Assembly (NCBI GenBank): GCA_017440965.1
Contig: JAFSGH010000004.1
Coordinates: forward strand, 1 to 61,985
Origin: Clostridia bacterium
Lineage (GTDB): Bacteria > Bacillota > Clostridia > Oscillospirales > Acutalibacteraceae
Length of the DNA stretch: 61,985 nucleotides
Direction: 5' to 3'
The notes under the pieces are model-generated. The model was not told where the DNA came from and ran no database searches. It saw only the letters and a list, made by a program, of their open reading frames with translations. Made by a program: the position numbers and the translations under genes. This document shows positions 1 through 7,359 of this stretch, one piece after another (position 1 is the stretch's first letter; each line of letters starts with the position of its first letter).

Positions 1-137
1 CACGGCAACGCCGTGTTGTATCTCATCACACCTTTAGGTGTGCATAAAATTCTGTCGGCTTGATGATATACAACTTCTTGCGAAGTTGATGATATGCAAT
101 TCCTTGCGGAATTGATGATATACAATGCTTCGCATTG
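1..137. repeat. Array of five short hairpins with differing stems
   Basis: Five small inverted repeats follow each other: positions 1-15, 27-42, 71-88, 97-114 and 123-137. The last three are separated by the near-identical spacer TGATGATATACAA or TGATGATATGCAA, while the stems themselves differ (CAACTTC, CAATTCC, CAATGC arms) and each arm is matched by its own complement. Conserved spacers with covarying stems suggest that the folded shape matters. The left edge of the window cuts the array, so its full size is unknown. It is not a CRISPR array: the conserved parts are only about 13 bases and the variable parts are self-complementary. Confidence 0.75.
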
Positions 138-678: not shown

Positions 679-1027
679 AGAAAACCAAGCTTTTAGACCG
701 GTTCCATTTTGAGTGTCGGTCCCAAAAATCCCGTTCACGGAAGTGGGCGGGATTTTTGCTTTTAACCTCTTACCTCCTCACTCTTACCACAGAAGAATTT
801 CATACGGGATTTTTGGAAGGAATAAGTAATAGGAAAGAGGTAATAAGTATTGAAATCGCTTCCGTTTTTTTCTTGCTTCCTGAAAAAAAGATGATTGCAG
901 TCTTAAGGGGGCAGAGATTTTTTGTAAAAATCAAATCATAAGTTTATTATGATGTGAAAAAATGTTATATTATATGAAAGAAACGGAGAAAAAATCGGTC
1001 TTTATATATGAGAGGAGGTTTTTCTTG
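679..1027. other. Intergenic region before the sigma factor gene
   Basis: It holds the intrinsic terminator at 724-757 and then about 270 AT-rich bases. A 61-codon frame beginning with TTG at 756 starts inside the terminator and has no ribosome site, so I do not call it. The sequence just before the sigma gene presumably contains its promoter, but I see no clear sigma-A pair and no recognisable ECF-type motif. Confidence 0.5.
724..757 (+). terminator. Intrinsic terminator after the 164-aa gene
   Basis: AAAAATCCCG at 724-733 pairs with CGGGATTTTT at 748-757, giving a GC-rich core with a T-run at its 3' side. The A-run on the 5' side means it may also work in reverse. Confidence 0.85.
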
Positions 1028-1591
1028 ATGGAGGATAAACAGTTGATAAGGCTTTTATTTTCGCGCTCTGAAAGCGCGCTTGTGATCCTTCGTGAACGCT
1101 TCGGTAAGGCCTTATATTCTATCGCAATGAATATTCTGGGTAATCATCACGATGCGGAAGAGGTAACCGATGATACATATCTTGCCGTATGGAATGCCAT
1201 TCCGCCGAAGGAGCCCGATCCGTTAGCTTCTTATGTGTACCGCACGGGAAGAAATATGGCATTGAAGCGATTGGAGTATCTTTCAGCCGAAAAACGAAAC
1301 AGCAGATATGATCTGTCTCTTGATGAGCTTTCTCAATATCTGCCGCATTTTGATGATGCCGAGCATATTTTTTCTGCAAAGGAGCTTGCAGACTCAATAA
1401 ATGATTTTTTGGAAAGGGACACGGAGCAAAACAGATATATATTTATCCGCAGATATTGGTACGGGGATACGCCTGAGGATATTGCAGCGGAGCTCAACAT
1501 AAAAAGCGGTGCCGTATATGTCCGCTTAAGCCGTATCAGAGAAAGACTGAAAAAGAAGCTTATTAAGGAGGGATTTTACTATGAGGCGTAA
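1028..1591 (+). CDS. ECF-type RNA polymerase sigma factor
   Basis: A sigma-70 family protein of about 187 residues with region 2 near the N-terminus (NILGNHHDAEEVTDDTYLAV) and a region 4 helix-turn-helix at the C-terminus (TPEDIAAELNIKSGAVYVRL), the standard ECF layout with no region 1 or 3. I chose ATG 1028 because AGAGGAGG lies just before it; the open frame runs back to 962, but those starts lack a ribosome site. The stop codon lies 11 bases inside the next gene, so the two are translationally coupled. In Clostridia such sigma genes are normally followed by their membrane-bound anti-sigma factor; here that place is taken by the serpin protein, whose N-terminus looks like an anti-sigma leader. 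Confidence 0.93.
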   Translation: MEDKQLIRLLFSRSESALVILRERFGKALYSIAMNILGNHHDAEEVTDDTYLAVWNAIPPKEPDPLASYVYRTGRNMALKRLEYLSAEKRNSRYDLSLDELSQYLPHFDDAEHIFSAKELADSINDFLERDTEQNRYIFIRRYWYGDTPEDIAAELNIKSGAVYVRLSRIRERLKKKLIKEGFYYEA

Positions 1592-3011
1592 GCAGGTATT
1601 GGAAATTCTTGATAAAATAGACGACAGATTTATAAATGAAGCCGAAAAACCGCCGAAAAGGAAGAAAATGGTTGTTTACCTGACTTCAGCTTTTGCGGCA
1701 TGCTTAGCACTTGTGATATGTATTACCTCATTTTTTGATACGGTAAATATTACTGCAGATGCCCTTGCTCTTCCGGGGGATGCCCGTATTATGAGCCACC
1801 CCGATTTAGATGACTATAAGGACAGGGAAAGCTATCTTGCTGATGTGGAAATATGGAACAATGAGCTTCAAAACAGAAAAGACAGCAAGGAAAAAGCAAT
1901 AGCTTCTCTGAATTCGTTTTTTATGAAGGCCTCTTCGGAATTTCTTGTTGCTGATAATAATGAAAATGCGTTGTGGTCTCCGATAAATGCATATGTCGGA
2001 CTTTCAATGCTTGCAGAAATTACGGACGGTGAGAGCCGACAGGAGATATTAACTTTGTTCGGAGCAGAAAGCATCGAAGCGTTGAGAAGACAGGTCAGTG
2101 CAGTATGGGAATCCGTTTATAAGGATAACGGGCATGAGATATCCGTATTGGCAAATTCCTTGTGGCTAAAAGAGGGGCTTAATTATGATAAGGATGCAAT
2201 GAATGCACTTGCATATCATTATTATGCATCGGTCTATCAGTGCGACCTCGGCAGCGACAGTGCCGATAAGGCTATAGGAAAATGGCTCAACGAAAATACG
2301 GGCGGCTTGTTAAAGAACAGCACGGATAAAATTGATCTGTCCCCCGACACTGTGCTCTTACTGTATTCTACTTTGTTTTTTCAGGCTAAATGGGGAAATG
2401 AATTCAATTCTGCAAGCAATACCGACGGTATATTCTACGGTGCTGACGGGGAGTCAAGCGTTACTTATATGAACAAAAAGCTCAGTCAGATGAATTATTA
2501 TTGGCATGATGATTATAGTGCAGTAGCATTAAACCTTAAAAACGGAAGCACTATGTGGTTTATTCTTCCTGATGAAGGAAAAACAACTGCTGATGTGTTA
2601 AATGTCGGTGCTTACGGCGAAATGATCTCTTCAGGCATTACGGGAGATGCCTGGCAGAACAAAAAGTATATGAAGGTCAATTTATCTGTTCCGAAATTTG
2701 ATGTTTCTTCCACTGTAAACTTAAAGGACGGACTCGGCAGAATGGGTGTAACCAAAGTCTTTGATATGGAAAGCTCCGATTTTACGGCAATCACCTCTGA
2801 TTCACCTGTGTATATTTCAGCCGTTAATCAGTCTGCAAAAGTTGAAATCGATGAAAAAGGCGTAAAGGCTGCAACATATATTGAAATTCCCGGTGCAGGC
2901 TCAGCTATGCCTCCGGAGGAAATAACAGATTTCGTGCTTGACAGGCCCTTTGTCTTTGTGATCTCGCAAAACGGTTTGCCGCTTTTTACGGGTGTTGTGA
3001 ATAATCTTTGA
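1581..3011 (+). CDS. Membrane-anchored serpin with anti-sigma-like N-terminus
   Basis: 476 residues. Residues 1-29 form a short cytoplasmic segment (VLEILDKIDDRFINEAE then a KPPKRKK basic stretch), residues 30-52 a membrane segment, and about 105-476 a complete serpin fold outside the cell. Serpin hallmarks are ALWSPINAYVGLSML (130-144), a hinge EKGVKAAT starting at Glu425, and the signature FVLDRPFVFVI (451-461). Small residues at the hinge fit an inhibitory serpin; counting from Glu425 as P17 puts P1-P1' at about Ser441-Ala442, suggesting elastase-like targets as for the siropins of [Eubacterium] siraeum. The leader resembles the one I recall from proteins encoded directly after ECF sigma genes in Ruminococcaceae, so it may hold the upstream sigma factor. 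ATG 1581 follows AAGGAGGG and overlaps the sigma gene. Serpin identity is firm; the regulatory role is inferred. Confidence 0.93.
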   Translation: MRRKQVLEILDKIDDRFINEAEKPPKRKKMVVYLTSAFAACLALVICITSFFDTVNITADALALPGDARIMSHPDLDDYKDRESYLADVEIWNNELQNRKDSKEKAIASLNSFFMKASSEFLVADNNENALWSPINAYVGLSMLAEITDGESRQEILTLFGAESIEALRRQVSAVWESVYKDNGHEISVLANSLWLKEGLNYDKDAMNALAYHYYASVYQCDLGSDSADKAIGKWLNENTGGLLKNSTDKIDLSPDTVLLLYSTLFFQAKWGNEFNSASNTDGIFYGADGESSVTYMNKKLSQMNYYWHDDYSAVALNLKNGSTMWFILPDEGKTTADVLNVGAYGEMISSGITGDAWQNKKYMKVNLSVPKFDVSSTVNLKDGLGRMGVTKVFDMESSDFTAITSDSPVYISAVNQSAKVEIDEKGVKAATYIEIPGAGSAMPPEEITDFVLDRPFVFVISQNGLPLFTGVVNNL

Positions 3012-3162: not shown

Positions 3163-4620
3163 TTAGTCTGTTTTATTGCAAAGCTTTATCAGCCTCTGGG
3201 ATGCCTTTACGGCAGAGAAGGCTCCTAATGTTGTTCCGCCTATGGGAAATACCTTTTGTCCTGCAAGCTGTGCGTTTTTTATCCCGGGCATTTTTCCTCT
3301 TGCATAGCGTAAATATATGAGGGGATTCCAGCCTTCGGGCATCCAACCGCCGCAGTTTACACCCGTATAACGAAAATATGTAAGAGGAGTTGTCATATCT
3401 GAAAACTGTAAGCAGCCTTTAAGCTCAGGATATCTTTCTTCTATTGTCTTTGTAATGCAACGGGCAATTCTCTGCTTTTCGTCCTTATATTGCTTTGTGC
3501 TGTCATCGTTTAATTCTTTCCATACCGCAAAGTCCTTCTCATTCTGATACAATGTTACGGACAGAGCTTTTTTATCGGTTTGGGTATCTTCCTGAATACG
3601 GACGGAAAAATTATTAAGCAGTCTGCTTCCTACCTTTATGGGAGCACAGGGGATCAATAAGTTGTCGATAATTTTGCTTGCCTTCTCCTTGTCGATGCTG
3701 AAATAAAGCATTACAGAGCTTGTGATATGCTCATTTTTTATTGTATTTTCAAGTGTCTTCAGTCGTTTGCCTGAATTATTGAAAACAGTATTTACTGCAA
3801 AAATGTCATTTGTAAAAATAACATGATCGAAGTCGCTCACGGTGTCATTCTGAAAATTAAGGGTGCAGATCCTTTTGTCCTTTACCGTAACGCTGATAAG
3901 CTCCTTGTTGAAAATGACCTTGCCGCCGTAACGGATATAGTTTTCATAGAGTGTTTCTGTCATTTCCTTCTGGTTGTTGTCGGGTGCACTGAAATTACCT
4001 GCTGAAAAAAATGACCACAAAACGATATACTGCAGCACACTTCTGGAGCCTGTCAGTACATCTGCGAAAAATTCCCTTAATTCGGGGCTCTTCATTTTCT
4101 TGCTGTATTTTCTGCAGGACAGCAGTCCGTAATAAAGCACCTCGGGAATTACAGGAAAGCAGTTGAAAAATATTTTTATCAGCCGTCTTAAGGTATCAGA
4201 GCTTGCCTTTGTTATCAGAGGTAATTCTATTTTCTGAAATTTCTTTACGGCTTTCCCCAATCTTAATATGTGCTTTTCGTCTGCTTGTCCGAGGGAAATA
4301 AGCTCCTTTACTGTTTTGTCAAAATCCTTATAAATGCTGACTGAATGTCCCTTCCACCAAAATGTTTTGAATTGTTTTTTGTTTTCAGGTGTTTCGGTAA
4401 ACATACCTAAGCTTTGCCACATATCATTTGCAAATGTGTTTTGTGCCGTACCGAAAACAAATTCCAGCGCATTATTGATAAGTATATCCTTTTTATATAC
4501 CGATATGACTCCTCCGGGAGTGCTCATTTTTTCAAAAATAACGGTATCAATACCGGCTTTCTGCAGGGTTATTCCCGCACTCATTCCGGTAATTCCGCTT
4601 CCTATAATAGCAACCTTCAT
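3163..4620 (-). CDS. FAD-dependent oxidoreductase, CrtI/amine oxidase type
   Basis: About 485 residues. The N-terminus is a dinucleotide-binding fold, MKVAIIGSGITGMSAGITL, with an acidic residue ending the second strand (VIFEK), typical of FAD-binding phytoene desaturase and amine oxidase proteins. The C-terminus has the closing FAD segment FPIGGTTLGAFSAVKASQRL. The substrate is unknown: such proteins in Clostridia may act on carotenoid-like or other prenyl or amine compounds, and no biosynthetic partner lies nearby. I chose ATG 4620 because GAGGAAG lies six bases upstream; an in-frame TTG four codons earlier has no such site. The gene stands alone, convergent with the serpin and divergent from GH92. 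No signal peptide or clear membrane segment is seen. Confidence 0.85.
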   Translation of the reverse strand: MKVAIIGSGITGMSAGITLQKAGIDTVIFEKMSTPGGVISVYKKDILINNALEFVFGTAQNTFANDMWQSLGMFTETPENKKQFKTFWWKGHSVSIYKDFDKTVKELISLGQADEKHILRLGKAVKKFQKIELPLITKASSDTLRRLIKIFFNCFPVIPEVLYYGLLSCRKYSKKMKSPELREFFADVLTGSRSVLQYIVLWSFFSAGNFSAPDNNQKEMTETLYENYIRYGGKVIFNKELISVTVKDKRICTLNFQNDTVSDFDHVIFTNDIFAVNTVFNNSGKRLKTLENTIKNEHITSSVMLYFSIDKEKASKIIDNLLIPCAPIKVGSRLLNNFSVRIQEDTQTDKKALSVTLYQNEKDFAVWKELNDDSTKQYKDEKQRIARCITKTIEERYPELKGCLQFSDMTTPLTYFRYTGVNCGGWMPEGWNPLIYLRYARGKMPGIKNAQLAGQKVFPIGGTTLGAFSAVKASQRLIKLCNKTD

Positions 4621-5121
4621 ATTCTTCCTCAATGTTGAGATGTCAGAATATCTGATATCCTGCAGAATCTCTATAATTCTGAAATTGAAAAAATATTATG
4701 CCATTACTATATGAATGCGCGGTTAATATATATTGAACATATTGTTAATAACATCGTATTTTGCAGAGCAGGCTTATCCGAAAAAATATTGACAACTAAA
4801 AAGAGCTATTTTTAAAAATTTTTTTCGGAGTGTTGCTTATCCCGCAGGTATAAGAAGGATTATTGCGGCCCGGAATATTGATTGCCGCTATCAAGCTCGT
4901 TGATTATCAGGAGCTGTTTGTGACTGAAGACGGTTATTGCTTTAACTACGGTGATGCTGTAGAATTTAACGGTAAATATGTTATAACCGGAAAAACAAAC
5001 AGCTCGGTCAGATTTGCAGAAGGTACTTATGATGTTATATTTCGATTATTTTCAGTTTATGTTATTGAAAAGATAATTAATATTTGATAGAATATATGAG
5101 ATCTAAATTGGCGGTGGTAAT
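4621..5121. other. Divergent intergenic region
   Basis: About 500 AT-rich bases between divergent genes. The GH92 promoter lies at 5065-5093. A possible second plus-strand promoter starts with TTGACA near 4788. A 74-codon frame (4863-5087) opens with TTG and has only a weak AAGGAT before it; its translation resembles nothing I know and it ends at the GH92 promoter, so it may be a decayed gene or chance. Confidence 0.4.
5065..5093 (+). promoter_or_regulatory. Promoter for the GH92 gene
   Basis: TTGAAA at 5065-5070 and TAGAAT at 5088-5093 are separated by 17 bases, about 30 bases before the GH92 start. Confidence 0.6.
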
Positions 5122-7359
5122 ATGGAAAAATTCAGATATGTAGATCCTATGATAGGTACAGTCGGAGAAGTTCAGACTGACCGCTCTCACGGCGGAGGAA
5201 AAACTCATCCCGGAGCCTCAGTGCCCGGCGGTATGGTGCAGATGTCTCCCGATACAGTTACAGGCGGAGATAACGGTACAGGCTATAATTACTGTCACGA
5301 TACGATAGAAGGCTTCAGCTGTAATCATATGAGCGGCATCGGCTGGTACGGGGATCTTGGTAATCTTCAGATAATGCCCGTAACGGGTGATACTCAGCTT
5401 CGTTCGGGAAGCAATGAGGAGGTCCCCTTCAATAAGGGTACAGAGGGCTGGAAGTCACCCTTTTCTCACGAAAAGGAAAAGGCTTCTGCAGGCTATTATT
5501 CAGTATATCTTGAAAAATACGGTATAACGGCAGAGGCAACAGTATCTCAGCATAACGGCTTGCTCAGATTTTCTTATCCCGAAAATTCAGACAGCAGAGT
5601 TATCTTCAATTTCTCAAGAAGAATTGGCGGTCACGCTGATTTTCAGGAGATCAATATAATCGATCCTGCGCGTATAGAAGGAAAGATCGTTTGCACGCCC
5701 AAGGGTGGCGGCTTCGGAAGAGGGCACGGAAATATCTCATATAATCTCTTCTTTGTATGTGAATTCTCGCGTCCTGCCGAAAAAATGCAGTTTTTTGCCA
5801 ATGAAGAGCTGAAGGAGGAGGGACTTCTCAGCTTCTCGGATGAGGACGCGGGAATGCTTGCTCATTTTTCTTATGATAAAGAGCCTCTTGTAATAAAATG
5901 CGCTATATCCTATACGGATATAGAAGGTGCAAGAAGAAATGCTGAGGAGATAAAGGGACTCAGCTTTGACGATGTCAGAGGAAATGCCGAAAGGGCTTGG
6001 GAGGAGGTATTCTCCTGCGTTGATGTTGAGGGCAGCAACGAGACAGATCTTAAGATCTTTTATACCTGCCTTTATCATACACTTCTTGATCCCAGATGCT
6101 CTGCCGATGTTGACGGCAGATTTGATATGTACGGTAAGATAATCAAGGCGGATTCCTATACCCACCGTACCGTTTTCAGCGGCTGGGATGTATACAGAAG
6201 CGAATTTCCGCTTCTTACGGTTATTCGTCCCGATATCGTTAATGATGAGATAAATTCTCTTCTTGCAATTGCAAAGGAAAAGAATGCGTCCCTGCCCCGC
6301 TGGGAGCTTCTGAATATTGATGCCGGCTGTATGGTAGGCGATCCCGGTCTTATCGTTGCCGCGGACGCTTATATAAAGGGAATAAGAAATTATGATATTG
6401 ATACCCTTTATGCAATAGCAAATGCAGCGGCACGCTCTGAAAAGGAGCTTTTCGGAAAGCCGTTTTCCTCAAAGCGTCCCGATGCTGAGCAGTATGTAAA
6501 GGATGCCTTTGTGCCGAAAAAACTCAGTGATACTCTTGAGTATCTTCTTGCCGATTATACTTTCTCAAGGCTTGCATGGGCTCTCGGTAAAAAGGATGAT
6601 GAGCGTCATTTCGCAGAAAGAGCAATGCGCTATAAGGAAAACTTCAATCCGCTTCTCGGCTTTATGGCTCCGAGAAAGGAAAACGGAAAATTTATGTGGA
6701 TATGGGGCAGATATGACGATAACTGCTGTGTAGAAAGCAATATTTTCCAGCAGTCCTGGTTCGTTCCCTATGATGTAAAAGGACTCAGCAGTCTTTTCGG
6801 CAAAAAGAGAACCGTGAGGCTTCTTGAAACATTCTTCAGAAAGGCAAAGCTCAGCGCCTTATGGAGCGTGGATTATAACCACTCAAATGAGCCCTGCCAC
6901 AATATCACGCATTATTTCAGCATGCTCGGACTTCCTCATCGCACTCAGTACTGGACAAGAAGAGTGCAGAAGGAATCCTACCGTATGGGTGCATTCGGCT
7001 TCTGCGGTAATGAGGATGTAGGTCAGCTTTCTGCCTGGTATGTGTTGTCCGCTCTCGGCTTTGCTCAGCTTTGTCCCGCATATAACGCATATTTTATAAA
7101 TACGCCTCTTTTTAAGTCTGCAAATGTAAAGCTCAGTAAGGAATATCATTCCTGCAGTGTTTCGGATACATTTACGGTAGAATGTGATAAGGATCCGCTT
7201 TCACATCCTTATATCAGTAAGGCTTTTCTTAACGGAAAAGAGATCGACCGCTGTTATCTTACATATGAAGAAATAACCGCAGGCGGTACATTCACCCTCT
7301 GCCTCTCCCAAACCCCATGCGAAAACTCCCTCAAAAAAGCGCCTGAAAGCTTTTTCTGA
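5122..7359 (+). CDS. GH92 family alpha-mannosidase, cytosolic
   Basis: 745 residues, close to the family's usual length. It opens with YVDPMIGTVG, the start typical of GH92, followed by HPGASVPGGMVQMSPDT and FSCNHMSGIGWYGDLG. Downstream are NHSNEPCHNITHYF, where Glu590 matches the family's general acid, and GNEDVGQLSAWYVLSALGF. GH92 enzymes are calcium-dependent exo-alpha-mannosidases, mostly acting on alpha-1,2 links of host or fungal N-glycans. Unlike Bacteroides homologues there is no signal peptide, so it should act inside the cell on imported oligosaccharides. The C-terminal segment reads LTYEEITAGGTF, where I would expect a His-x-Asp type motif, so the catalytic base deserves checking. 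It is followed six bases later by a small membrane protein gene. Confidence 0.92.
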   Translation: MEKFRYVDPMIGTVGEVQTDRSHGGGKTHPGASVPGGMVQMSPDTVTGGDNGTGYNYCHDTIEGFSCNHMSGIGWYGDLGNLQIMPVTGDTQLRSGSNEEVPFNKGTEGWKSPFSHEKEKASAGYYSVYLEKYGITAEATVSQHNGLLRFSYPENSDSRVIFNFSRRIGGHADFQEINIIDPARIEGKIVCTPKGGGFGRGHGNISYNLFFVCEFSRPAEKMQFFANEELKEEGLLSFSDEDAGMLAHFSYDKEPLVIKCAISYTDIEGARRNAEEIKGLSFDDVRGNAERAWEEVFSCVDVEGSNETDLKIFYTCLYHTLLDPRCSADVDGRFDMYGKIIKADSYTHRTVFSGWDVYRSEFPLLTVIRPDIVNDEINSLLAIAKEKNASLPRWELLNIDAGCMVGDPGLIVAADAYIKGIRNYDIDTLYAIANAAARSEKELFGKPFSSKRPDAEQYVKDAFVPKKLSDTLEYLLADYTFSRLAWALGKKDDERHFAERAMRYKENFNPLLGFMAPRKENGKFMWIWGRYDDNCCVESNIFQQSWFVPYDVKGLSSLFGKKRTVRLLETFFRKAKLSALWSVDYNHSNEPCHNITHYFSMLGLPHRTQYWTRRVQKESYRMGAFGFCGNEDVGQLSAWYVLSALGFAQLCPAYNAYFINTPLFKSANVKLSKEYHSCSVSDTFTVECDKDPLSHPYISKAFLNGKEIDRCYLTYEEITAGGTFTLCLSQTPCENSLKKAPESFF

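Follow-up and report, generated by a model that had tools for sequence, protein, structure and literature searches.

The window, by which we mean the whole analysed stretch of 61,985 nucleotides from a Clostridia bacterium of the Acutalibacteraceae (contig JAFSGH010000004.1), carries near its beginning an ECF sigma factor gene whose 3' end overlaps the 5' end of a serpin gene by 11 nt (Table 1). The sigma ORF matches Pfam profiles for regions 2 and 4 only, both above cut-off, and the NCBIfam family sigma70-ECF TIGR02937 at 1.1e-21, which exceeds the family cut-off, and it is thus an ECF sigma factor gene by membership. The AGGAGG within the sigma gene has a spacing that suits the serpin ATG. 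The gene 3' of the serpin is convergent and codes for a FAD-dependent oxidoreductase, and the unit in the window therefore consists of two genes. A sequence-only reading of the locus had described an ECF sigma gene overlapped by the gene of a protein with a short basic leader, a single membrane helix and, outside, a complete serpin of the inhibitory type, and this description holds, by the overlap and the profile matches for the pair, and by the leader, hydropathy, Serpin match and hinge for the protein. A separate anti-sigma gene had been named as evidence that would speak against that reading, and beside the sigma-serpin pair in the window none was seen.

Table 1. Features of the sigma-serpin locus and its surroundings, in positions of the window
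Feature	Position	Strand	Basis
Adjacent small hairpin repeats	62..117		
Candidate ECF-type promoter, TGAAAG (975-980), 15 nt, CGGTCT (996-1001)	975..1001	+	pattern from orthologues
AGGAGG ribosome-binding site, sigma gene	1013..1018	+	read from sequence
ECF sigma factor gene, 187 aa	1028..1591	+	Sigma70_r2 1.1e-10, Sigma70_r4_2 1.9e-8
AGGAGG ribosome-binding site, serpin gene, within sigma gene	1566..1571	+	read from sequence
Membrane serpin, proposed anti-sigma factor, 476 aa	1581..3011	+	Pfam Serpin 2.6e-65
Cytoplasmic leader, residues 1-29, proposed sigma-binding domain	1581..1667	+	conserved type-A motif; leader and transmembrane alignment
Single transmembrane helix, about residues 30-52	1668..1736	+	hydropathy; end set by eye
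Extracellular juxtamembrane linker, residues 53-109, conserved P74 and W92	1737..1907	+	two alignments
Serpin domain, residues 110-475	1908..3005	+	PF00079 match
Reactive centre loop, P17 (E425) to P4' (P445)	2853..2915	+	alignments
FAD-dependent oxidoreductase	3163..4632		
Glycoside hydrolase family 92	5122..7359		Pfam 5.4e-120

The leader of the serpin protein is basic and polar, and the helix that follows from about residue 30 has a Kyte-Doolittle mean of 2.48. The PF00079 match (221.5 bits) spans profile positions 3-369 of 370, which makes the protein a member of the serpin superfamily over practically the whole domain. Its reactive loop reads EKGVKAATYIEIPGAGSAMPPEE, with the hinge E425-K-G427-V-K-A-A-T, where Gly stands at P15 and P12-P9 are Ala-Ala-Thr-Tyr. 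The hinge of an inhibitory serpin is defined by glycine at P15 and by small residues from P12 to P9, and the window sequence EKGVKAATY is of this kind, with a Tyr at P9. The nominal P1-P1' bond is S441-A442, and in the alignments G427 is invariant and P444 nearly so.

The sequence-only reading had also likened the leader to those found behind other ECF sigma genes, and the sister sigma genes bear this out. In the genus, group-A sigma genes gave 77 matches in 24 of the 26 genomes, and 30 loci of those 77 matches contained 33 group-A sigma ORFs, of which 31 had a readable downstream ORF. Every one of these 31 partners has a leader followed by a transmembrane helix; 10 are serpins and 21 are other proteins. 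Nine non-serpin partners from the genus were scanned and, with E up to 0.01, matched no Pfam family; the partner ectodomain of L045 in the window's own genome likewise matched none at the thresholds used, and that of L044 gave a sub-threshold DUF4179 match only. Both loci, and L225-L252 in the genus, have sister sigma genes of group A whose partners start with a leader of this kind. The partners of the sister genes are a set of orphan receptors. When the non-serpin partner of L252 was compared with the window serpin by BLASTP, residues 1-45 aligned with residues 1-46 at 39% identity (E 2e-7) and the remaining aligned pieces had E above 7, so that the leader and helix alone are meaningful. The partners at L249 and L252 had been flagged as serpins; these flags are false and reflect the leader and helix only.

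The type-A leader motif (n=94) is roughly L..AI..I.D..I..A followed by Lys/Arg, about 22 residues in which hydrophobic positions are regularly spaced. In a crude test of mutual information between leader and sigma columns over 94 pairs the top pairs were scattered. The arrangement is that of a membrane anti-sigma factor, with a gene that overlaps or abuts the sigma gene and a product made of leader, one transmembrane helix (by hydropathy only) and outer domain. The window protein matched no anti-sigma Pfam domain at E up to 1, and its leader of 29 aa without His or Cys does not belong to class I, for which the pipeline of PMC7406223 sets an ASDI cut-off of at least 50 aa, or to the ZAS type, which has the motif Hx3Cx2C. 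Among known systems a similar case is the class II anti-sigma factor CnrY, two helices of which are enough to wrap the ECF sigma factor CnrH, according to the available parts of two papers (PMC7406223, PMC8103513). The likeness drawn here is one of description. CnrY and CnrH differ in their setting, and serve metal sensing in Cupriavidus metallidurans.

The coupling of serpin and sigma gene is not confined to the locus in the window. The same genome has a second serpin behind an ECF gene of its own, with a 4-nt overlap and a leader, and in the genus serpins are present in 22 of 26 genomes (36 matches); in 30 of these 36 loci, 23 of the 28 serpins with a readable N-terminus have both sigma gene and leader. 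A scan of named genomes, covering the best 80 of 443 confirmed relatives, added 79 full-length serpins, of which 67 are linked when a wider start search is included and 65 by the automatic call alone; this set is biased towards linked serpins because the query was built from them. The first census went from 114 serpin ORFs to 107 full-length ones, after removal of those cut at contig ends (L023, L029, L067, the second of L077, L084 and L115) and of a second serpin ORF of 264 aa at L117. Synteny had been proposed as a check on the sequence-only reading, and in this combined set, biased towards linked serpins as it is, 90 of 107 lie directly behind an ECF gene, all with a leader. The gene junctions of the 90 are tight, 83 being overlaps of 1-23 nt and 7 having a gap of 0-23 nt, and in 89 of them the helix starts at residue 27-50, the leader of L117 being longer. 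Serpins unlinked from any sigma gene had been named as a finding that would count against the coupling. There are 17 of them among the 107, but they also lack the leader, as judged by eye, and this fits the reading. Where a start could be called, the helix is preceded by 0-19 residues, and these serpins resemble lipoproteins, signal-peptide proteins or short signal-anchor proteins. At L136 an ECF gene lies 129 nt away from a lipoprotein-like serpin, which was counted as not linked.

In the family as a whole a serpin was found in 132 of 397 genomes. A less biased sample of 58 regions, taken as every second match without a locus among the matches listed, held 66 serpin ORFs, some cut at region ends and some also present in the other sets, and 14 of these are linked. 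The best family matches gave 33 ORFs in 29 loci; 7 of them have an ECF gene at a distance of no more than 150 nt, and 6 have a leader. In the phylum sample a serpin occurs in 54 of 299 genomes, and none of the 30 best was linked when sigma genes were sought with two profiles, which were built from the window's lineage and could miss very different sigma genes. This result argues against linkage being an artefact of the whole superfamily, and linkage is therefore a trait of the lineage. In gut Clostridia it looks derived. Record titles of the relatives point to the gut of goat, roe deer, water buffalo and sheep, and the names in others to chicken and rabbit; among the linked records there is one, Flavonifractor sp. 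AGMB03687 (L118), that carries no metagenome-assembly label.

Some loci depart from the simple pair. Two serpin genes are present at L077, L078 and L112; leader and sigma gene accompany only one of the two at L112 and both at L078, and the second at L077 is cut at the contig end. At L185 (reverse strand, 447-1958) a serpin with a type-A leader follows a short sigma-like C-terminal remnant near the contig end, where an ORF that is recombinase-like by eye is also found; this serpin may have lost its sigma, and only the serpin tree counts it as type A. In the genus serpins L003 and L010 Pfam places a dockerin domain behind the signal sequence (in L005 it was judged by eye), so that cellulosome-type and sigma-linked serpins coexist in the genus.

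Serpins sit on five leader/sigma types, A, B, C, D and F, which were assigned by eye. Apart from type A these are type B (L112, L113, L195), type C (L130, L132, L140, L146, L171, L174, L178), type D (L126, L155) and type F (L133); the serpins of L112, L126, L130 and L133 and the sigma genes of L126, L130, L133 and L171 were checked with Pfam. All trees were quick ones. On a sigma tree of 115 rows, eight of them non-serpin ECF genes from the window's own genome, 5 changes account for the six leader labels, which is the minimum, and type B together with the non-serpin L042 is not one clade, the nearest rows of L042 being of type C. In a serpin tree of 193 rows the leader labels need 21 changes, although they are still clustered compared with a shuffled mean of 72.5. 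Leader type, as called by eye, thus follows sigma type (5 changes) better than serpin kinship (21), as is expected of an anti-sigma domain, and the position of the serpin protein as an anti-sigma factor, which the sequence-only reading had proposed, is supported by comparison. Sigma gene and ectodomain are both genetically linked to the leader, and the contrast between 5 and 21 therefore marks the break point between helix and ectodomain.

A smaller tree of 60 rows, with the window, all serpins of types B, C, D and F, and 16 type-A and 30 unlinked rows drawn randomly, was used for topology tests. In this tree a single clade of all linked serpins was rejected (p-AU 1.06e-6), and so was a clade of types C, D and F (p-AU 0.005), the latter test having been chosen after the first tree was seen. 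The simplest reading is that serpins have joined sigma pairs several times separately, and losses could mimic part of the pattern.

From the end of the candidate promoter in Table 1 it is 23 nt to a TTG (1025) and 26 nt to the ATG (1028). The promoter site is a weak and divergent member (10.2 bits) of a pattern that was obtained by gapped EM from 71 non-redundant sigma upstreams, TGTnAC, 16 or 17 nt, and CGTCTA/T, often followed by TATAGGTGAA; the EM splits the window site as TGAAAG-16-GGTCTT. Usable upstreams came from 78 of the 90 linked loci, twelve having given none. The first motif returned by the EM was the ribosome-binding site, and it was rerun without the last 19 nt, after which the score was 215 for the real set (40 random starts) as against 70-88 in four shuffled sets (25 random starts). 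A strict pattern drawn by eye from six upstreams, which were excluded from the count, is present in 15 of the 66 others and absent from 51, compared with a mean of 0.38 and a maximum of 3 in 200 shuffles; it has no match on the reverse strand and occurs before 3 of 79 unlinked serpins. We take the arrangement to be that of an autoregulated ECF promoter. As a bipartite promoter of this type recurs upstream of the sigma genes, the sigma-serpin pair probably drives its own expression. When the window's genome (86% complete) was searched for a regulon, two strict promoter patterns gave 8 and 4 matches, and the reversed controls gave 3 and 6. The two sigma genes have their own sites 22-23 nt before a well-placed start. 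Among the other matches L221 is intergenic, 105 nt before another ORF, L213 and L223 are within ORFs yet before some start codon, and the rest have no nearby start. Most matches in the genome are thus inside ORFs or far from starts, and no more than probable autoregulation is therefore claimed.

The gene pair, the topology given by hydropathy, the shared leader, the several leader/sigma types, the inhibitory-type hinge and the recurrent promoter are all seen in sequence and comparison, and it is very probable that they belong to an ECF/anti-sigma pair with a serpin head. As to how such a pair would work, we infer that the leader acts as a short anti-sigma domain that would bind the ECF sigma factor and tether it at the membrane, with the extracellular serpin as a metastable bait. 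A protease that accepts a small P1, of the elastase or subtilisin kind, would cut the reactive loop and become trapped, and the serpin would go irreversibly from the stressed to the relaxed form. This change, or the attached protease, would then open the anti-sigma protein to regulated proteolysis, with a site-1 cut outside followed by an M50 site-2 protease (three M50 matches are present in the genome). The freed sigma factor would transcribe its own operon as its self-directed regulon, and each consumed suicide inhibitor would in this way report its own loss and order its replacement. The reaction between serpin and protease is the likely trigger, and towards the chain as a whole, with that reaction setting it off, we incline with some reserve.

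A different role for the serpin, unlikely but deserving some weight, is that it is the output and not the sensor. The leader would still be an anti-sigma domain but would respond to another trigger, for instance a further protein or stress on the membrane or envelope, and the fusion would keep a surface inhibitor under its own sigma factor. It would agree with this that unlinked relatives of the lipoprotein type, which have no adjacent sigma gene, share both the reactive loop and the juxtamembrane YP motif, and neither is therefore specific to signalling; AxA signal-peptidase-like sites past the helix are also little enriched, being found in 97 of 109 linked and 69 of 87 unlinked serpins. However, the same kind of leader carries other ectodomains behind the sister sigma genes, which is the usual layout of a sensor swap, and the spread of serpins over five leader types, by eye, together with the rejection of a single linked clade, also argues for a sensor.

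The shape of the linker and loop bears on a second and rather improbable role, that of a decoy or shield, in which the linker or loop is cut, the ectodomain is shed, and its loss alone starts regulated proteolysis. Many linkers are long and variable and would be easy to cut, but they are short in the window protein, as in L007 and L008, its closest relatives, and hinge and loop are conserved as in serpins that trap proteases. Hormone-binding serpins are non-inhibitory ligand binders, and a head of that sort, sensing a small molecule, would find some agreement in the residue at P14, where 80 of 109 linked serpins have Val, as against 44 of 85 unlinked ones with Thr. This contrast may as well come from descent or from a different rate of loop insertion, and we find a ligand binder very hard to reconcile with the small residues at P12-P9, kept in 109 of 109 linked serpins under a lenient rule that asks for three of the four, and with a conserved loop register and small P1. 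With the register fixed, 88 of 95 type-A serpins have Ala, Ser or Gly at P1. Small P1 residues suit elastase- or subtilisin-like enzymes, and the pattern fits targets of that type. That the leader is a plain signal anchor without anti-sigma function, and the two genes merely translationally coupled, as overlapping genes in compact operons commonly are, is scarcely credible, since unlinked serpins with a callable start have the short stretch before the helix mentioned above, without a motif by eye, and the motif of the linked leaders occurs also on non-serpin partners.

For the preferred reading, of an anti-sigma factor whose serpin head senses proteases, the closest precedent of an anti-sigma factor as a receptor for a host enzyme is RsiV. 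In Bacillus and C. difficile this anti-sigma factor of sigma-V is the receptor for lysozyme, as given in the available parts of four papers (PMC6066255, PMC4183432, PMC5014341, PMC9044953), and sigma is released by regulated proteolysis in which signal peptidase cuts first (PMC6066255, in part). Both systems would combine an ECF sigma factor with a membrane anti-sigma factor whose outer domain binds a host enzyme, but the outer domain of RsiV is not a serpin, and the signal proposed here is an irreversible covalent reaction. The window protein has no DUF4179 or other RsiV domain at Pfam E up to 1.

A second parallel is RsgI of cellulolytic Clostridia, a group of membrane anti-sigma factors with swapped CBM and GH outer modules and several sigma-I partners (PMC3413522, PMC12484212, PMC3990059, each in the parts available). 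They are similar to the present proteins in that outer sensor modules are exchanged and matched to sigma factors; the RsgI sensors detect polysaccharide, and no serpin ectodomain is described in those parts. The window protein has no match to the RsgI N-terminal Pfam domain at E up to 1, and its partner is of the ECF type. SigI belongs to another sigma group.

Among bacterial serpins, the siropins act on human neutrophil elastase and PR3, which also cut them (PMC5127057, PMC8233489, in the parts available), and with miropin and other bacterial serpins of group T they share the serpin domain and the small-residue hinge found here. They differ in that siropin 1 is predicted to be intracellular and siropin 2 extracellular, and in that the available parts of the same two papers describe no leader, sigma gene or signalling role; membrane-anchored prokaryotic serpins are mentioned in PMC8233489, in the part available, without a signalling role. 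The sequence-only reading knew of no serpin-based signalling system in bacteria, and the open PMC literature agrees, within a scope that leaves most subscription papers, preprints and supplements outside. No prior report of a link between a serpin and a sigma or anti-sigma factor was found there, and the link is absent from the available parts of PMC12484212, PMC3413522, PMC5127057, PMC8233489, PMC8201313, PMC10059941 and PMC3990059.

We read the serpin-headed anti-sigma factors, from their sequences and gene order, as a new receptor class, in which a new sensor head would be placed on a known switch. This gives serpins a testable role in gut bacteria, that of receptor heads on sigma-factor switches. 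The recurrence of the design in many gut Clostridia suggests that protease attack may be sensed there via the consumption of the cell's own suicide inhibitor. In its full form, where attack would be gauged by the irreversible loss of a suicide inhibitor, each trapped protease freeing sigma and reordering serpin, and where this would have arisen more than once in gut Clostridia as serpins were joined to different sigma/anti-sigma pairs, the idea could go either way. If it is true, the design would be a one-shot protease sensor based on a covalent reaction with its ligand, and the first case, as far as we know, of bacterial signal transduction by a serpin. Gut bacteria would then directly read the protease activity of their host or of other microbes, which would bear on inflammation-linked elastase activity.

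Two further features of the window lie on either side of the pair. Downstream, the gene of a glycoside hydrolase of family 92 adjoins that of the FAD-dependent oxidoreductase. Upstream are the adjacent small hairpin repeats of the form GATGATATRCAA-n-TTGATG, for which the window has two strict matches and 100 shuffles none; the genome has seven, including the pair in the window, against zero in the reversed control, and the element is possibly a short mobile repeat.
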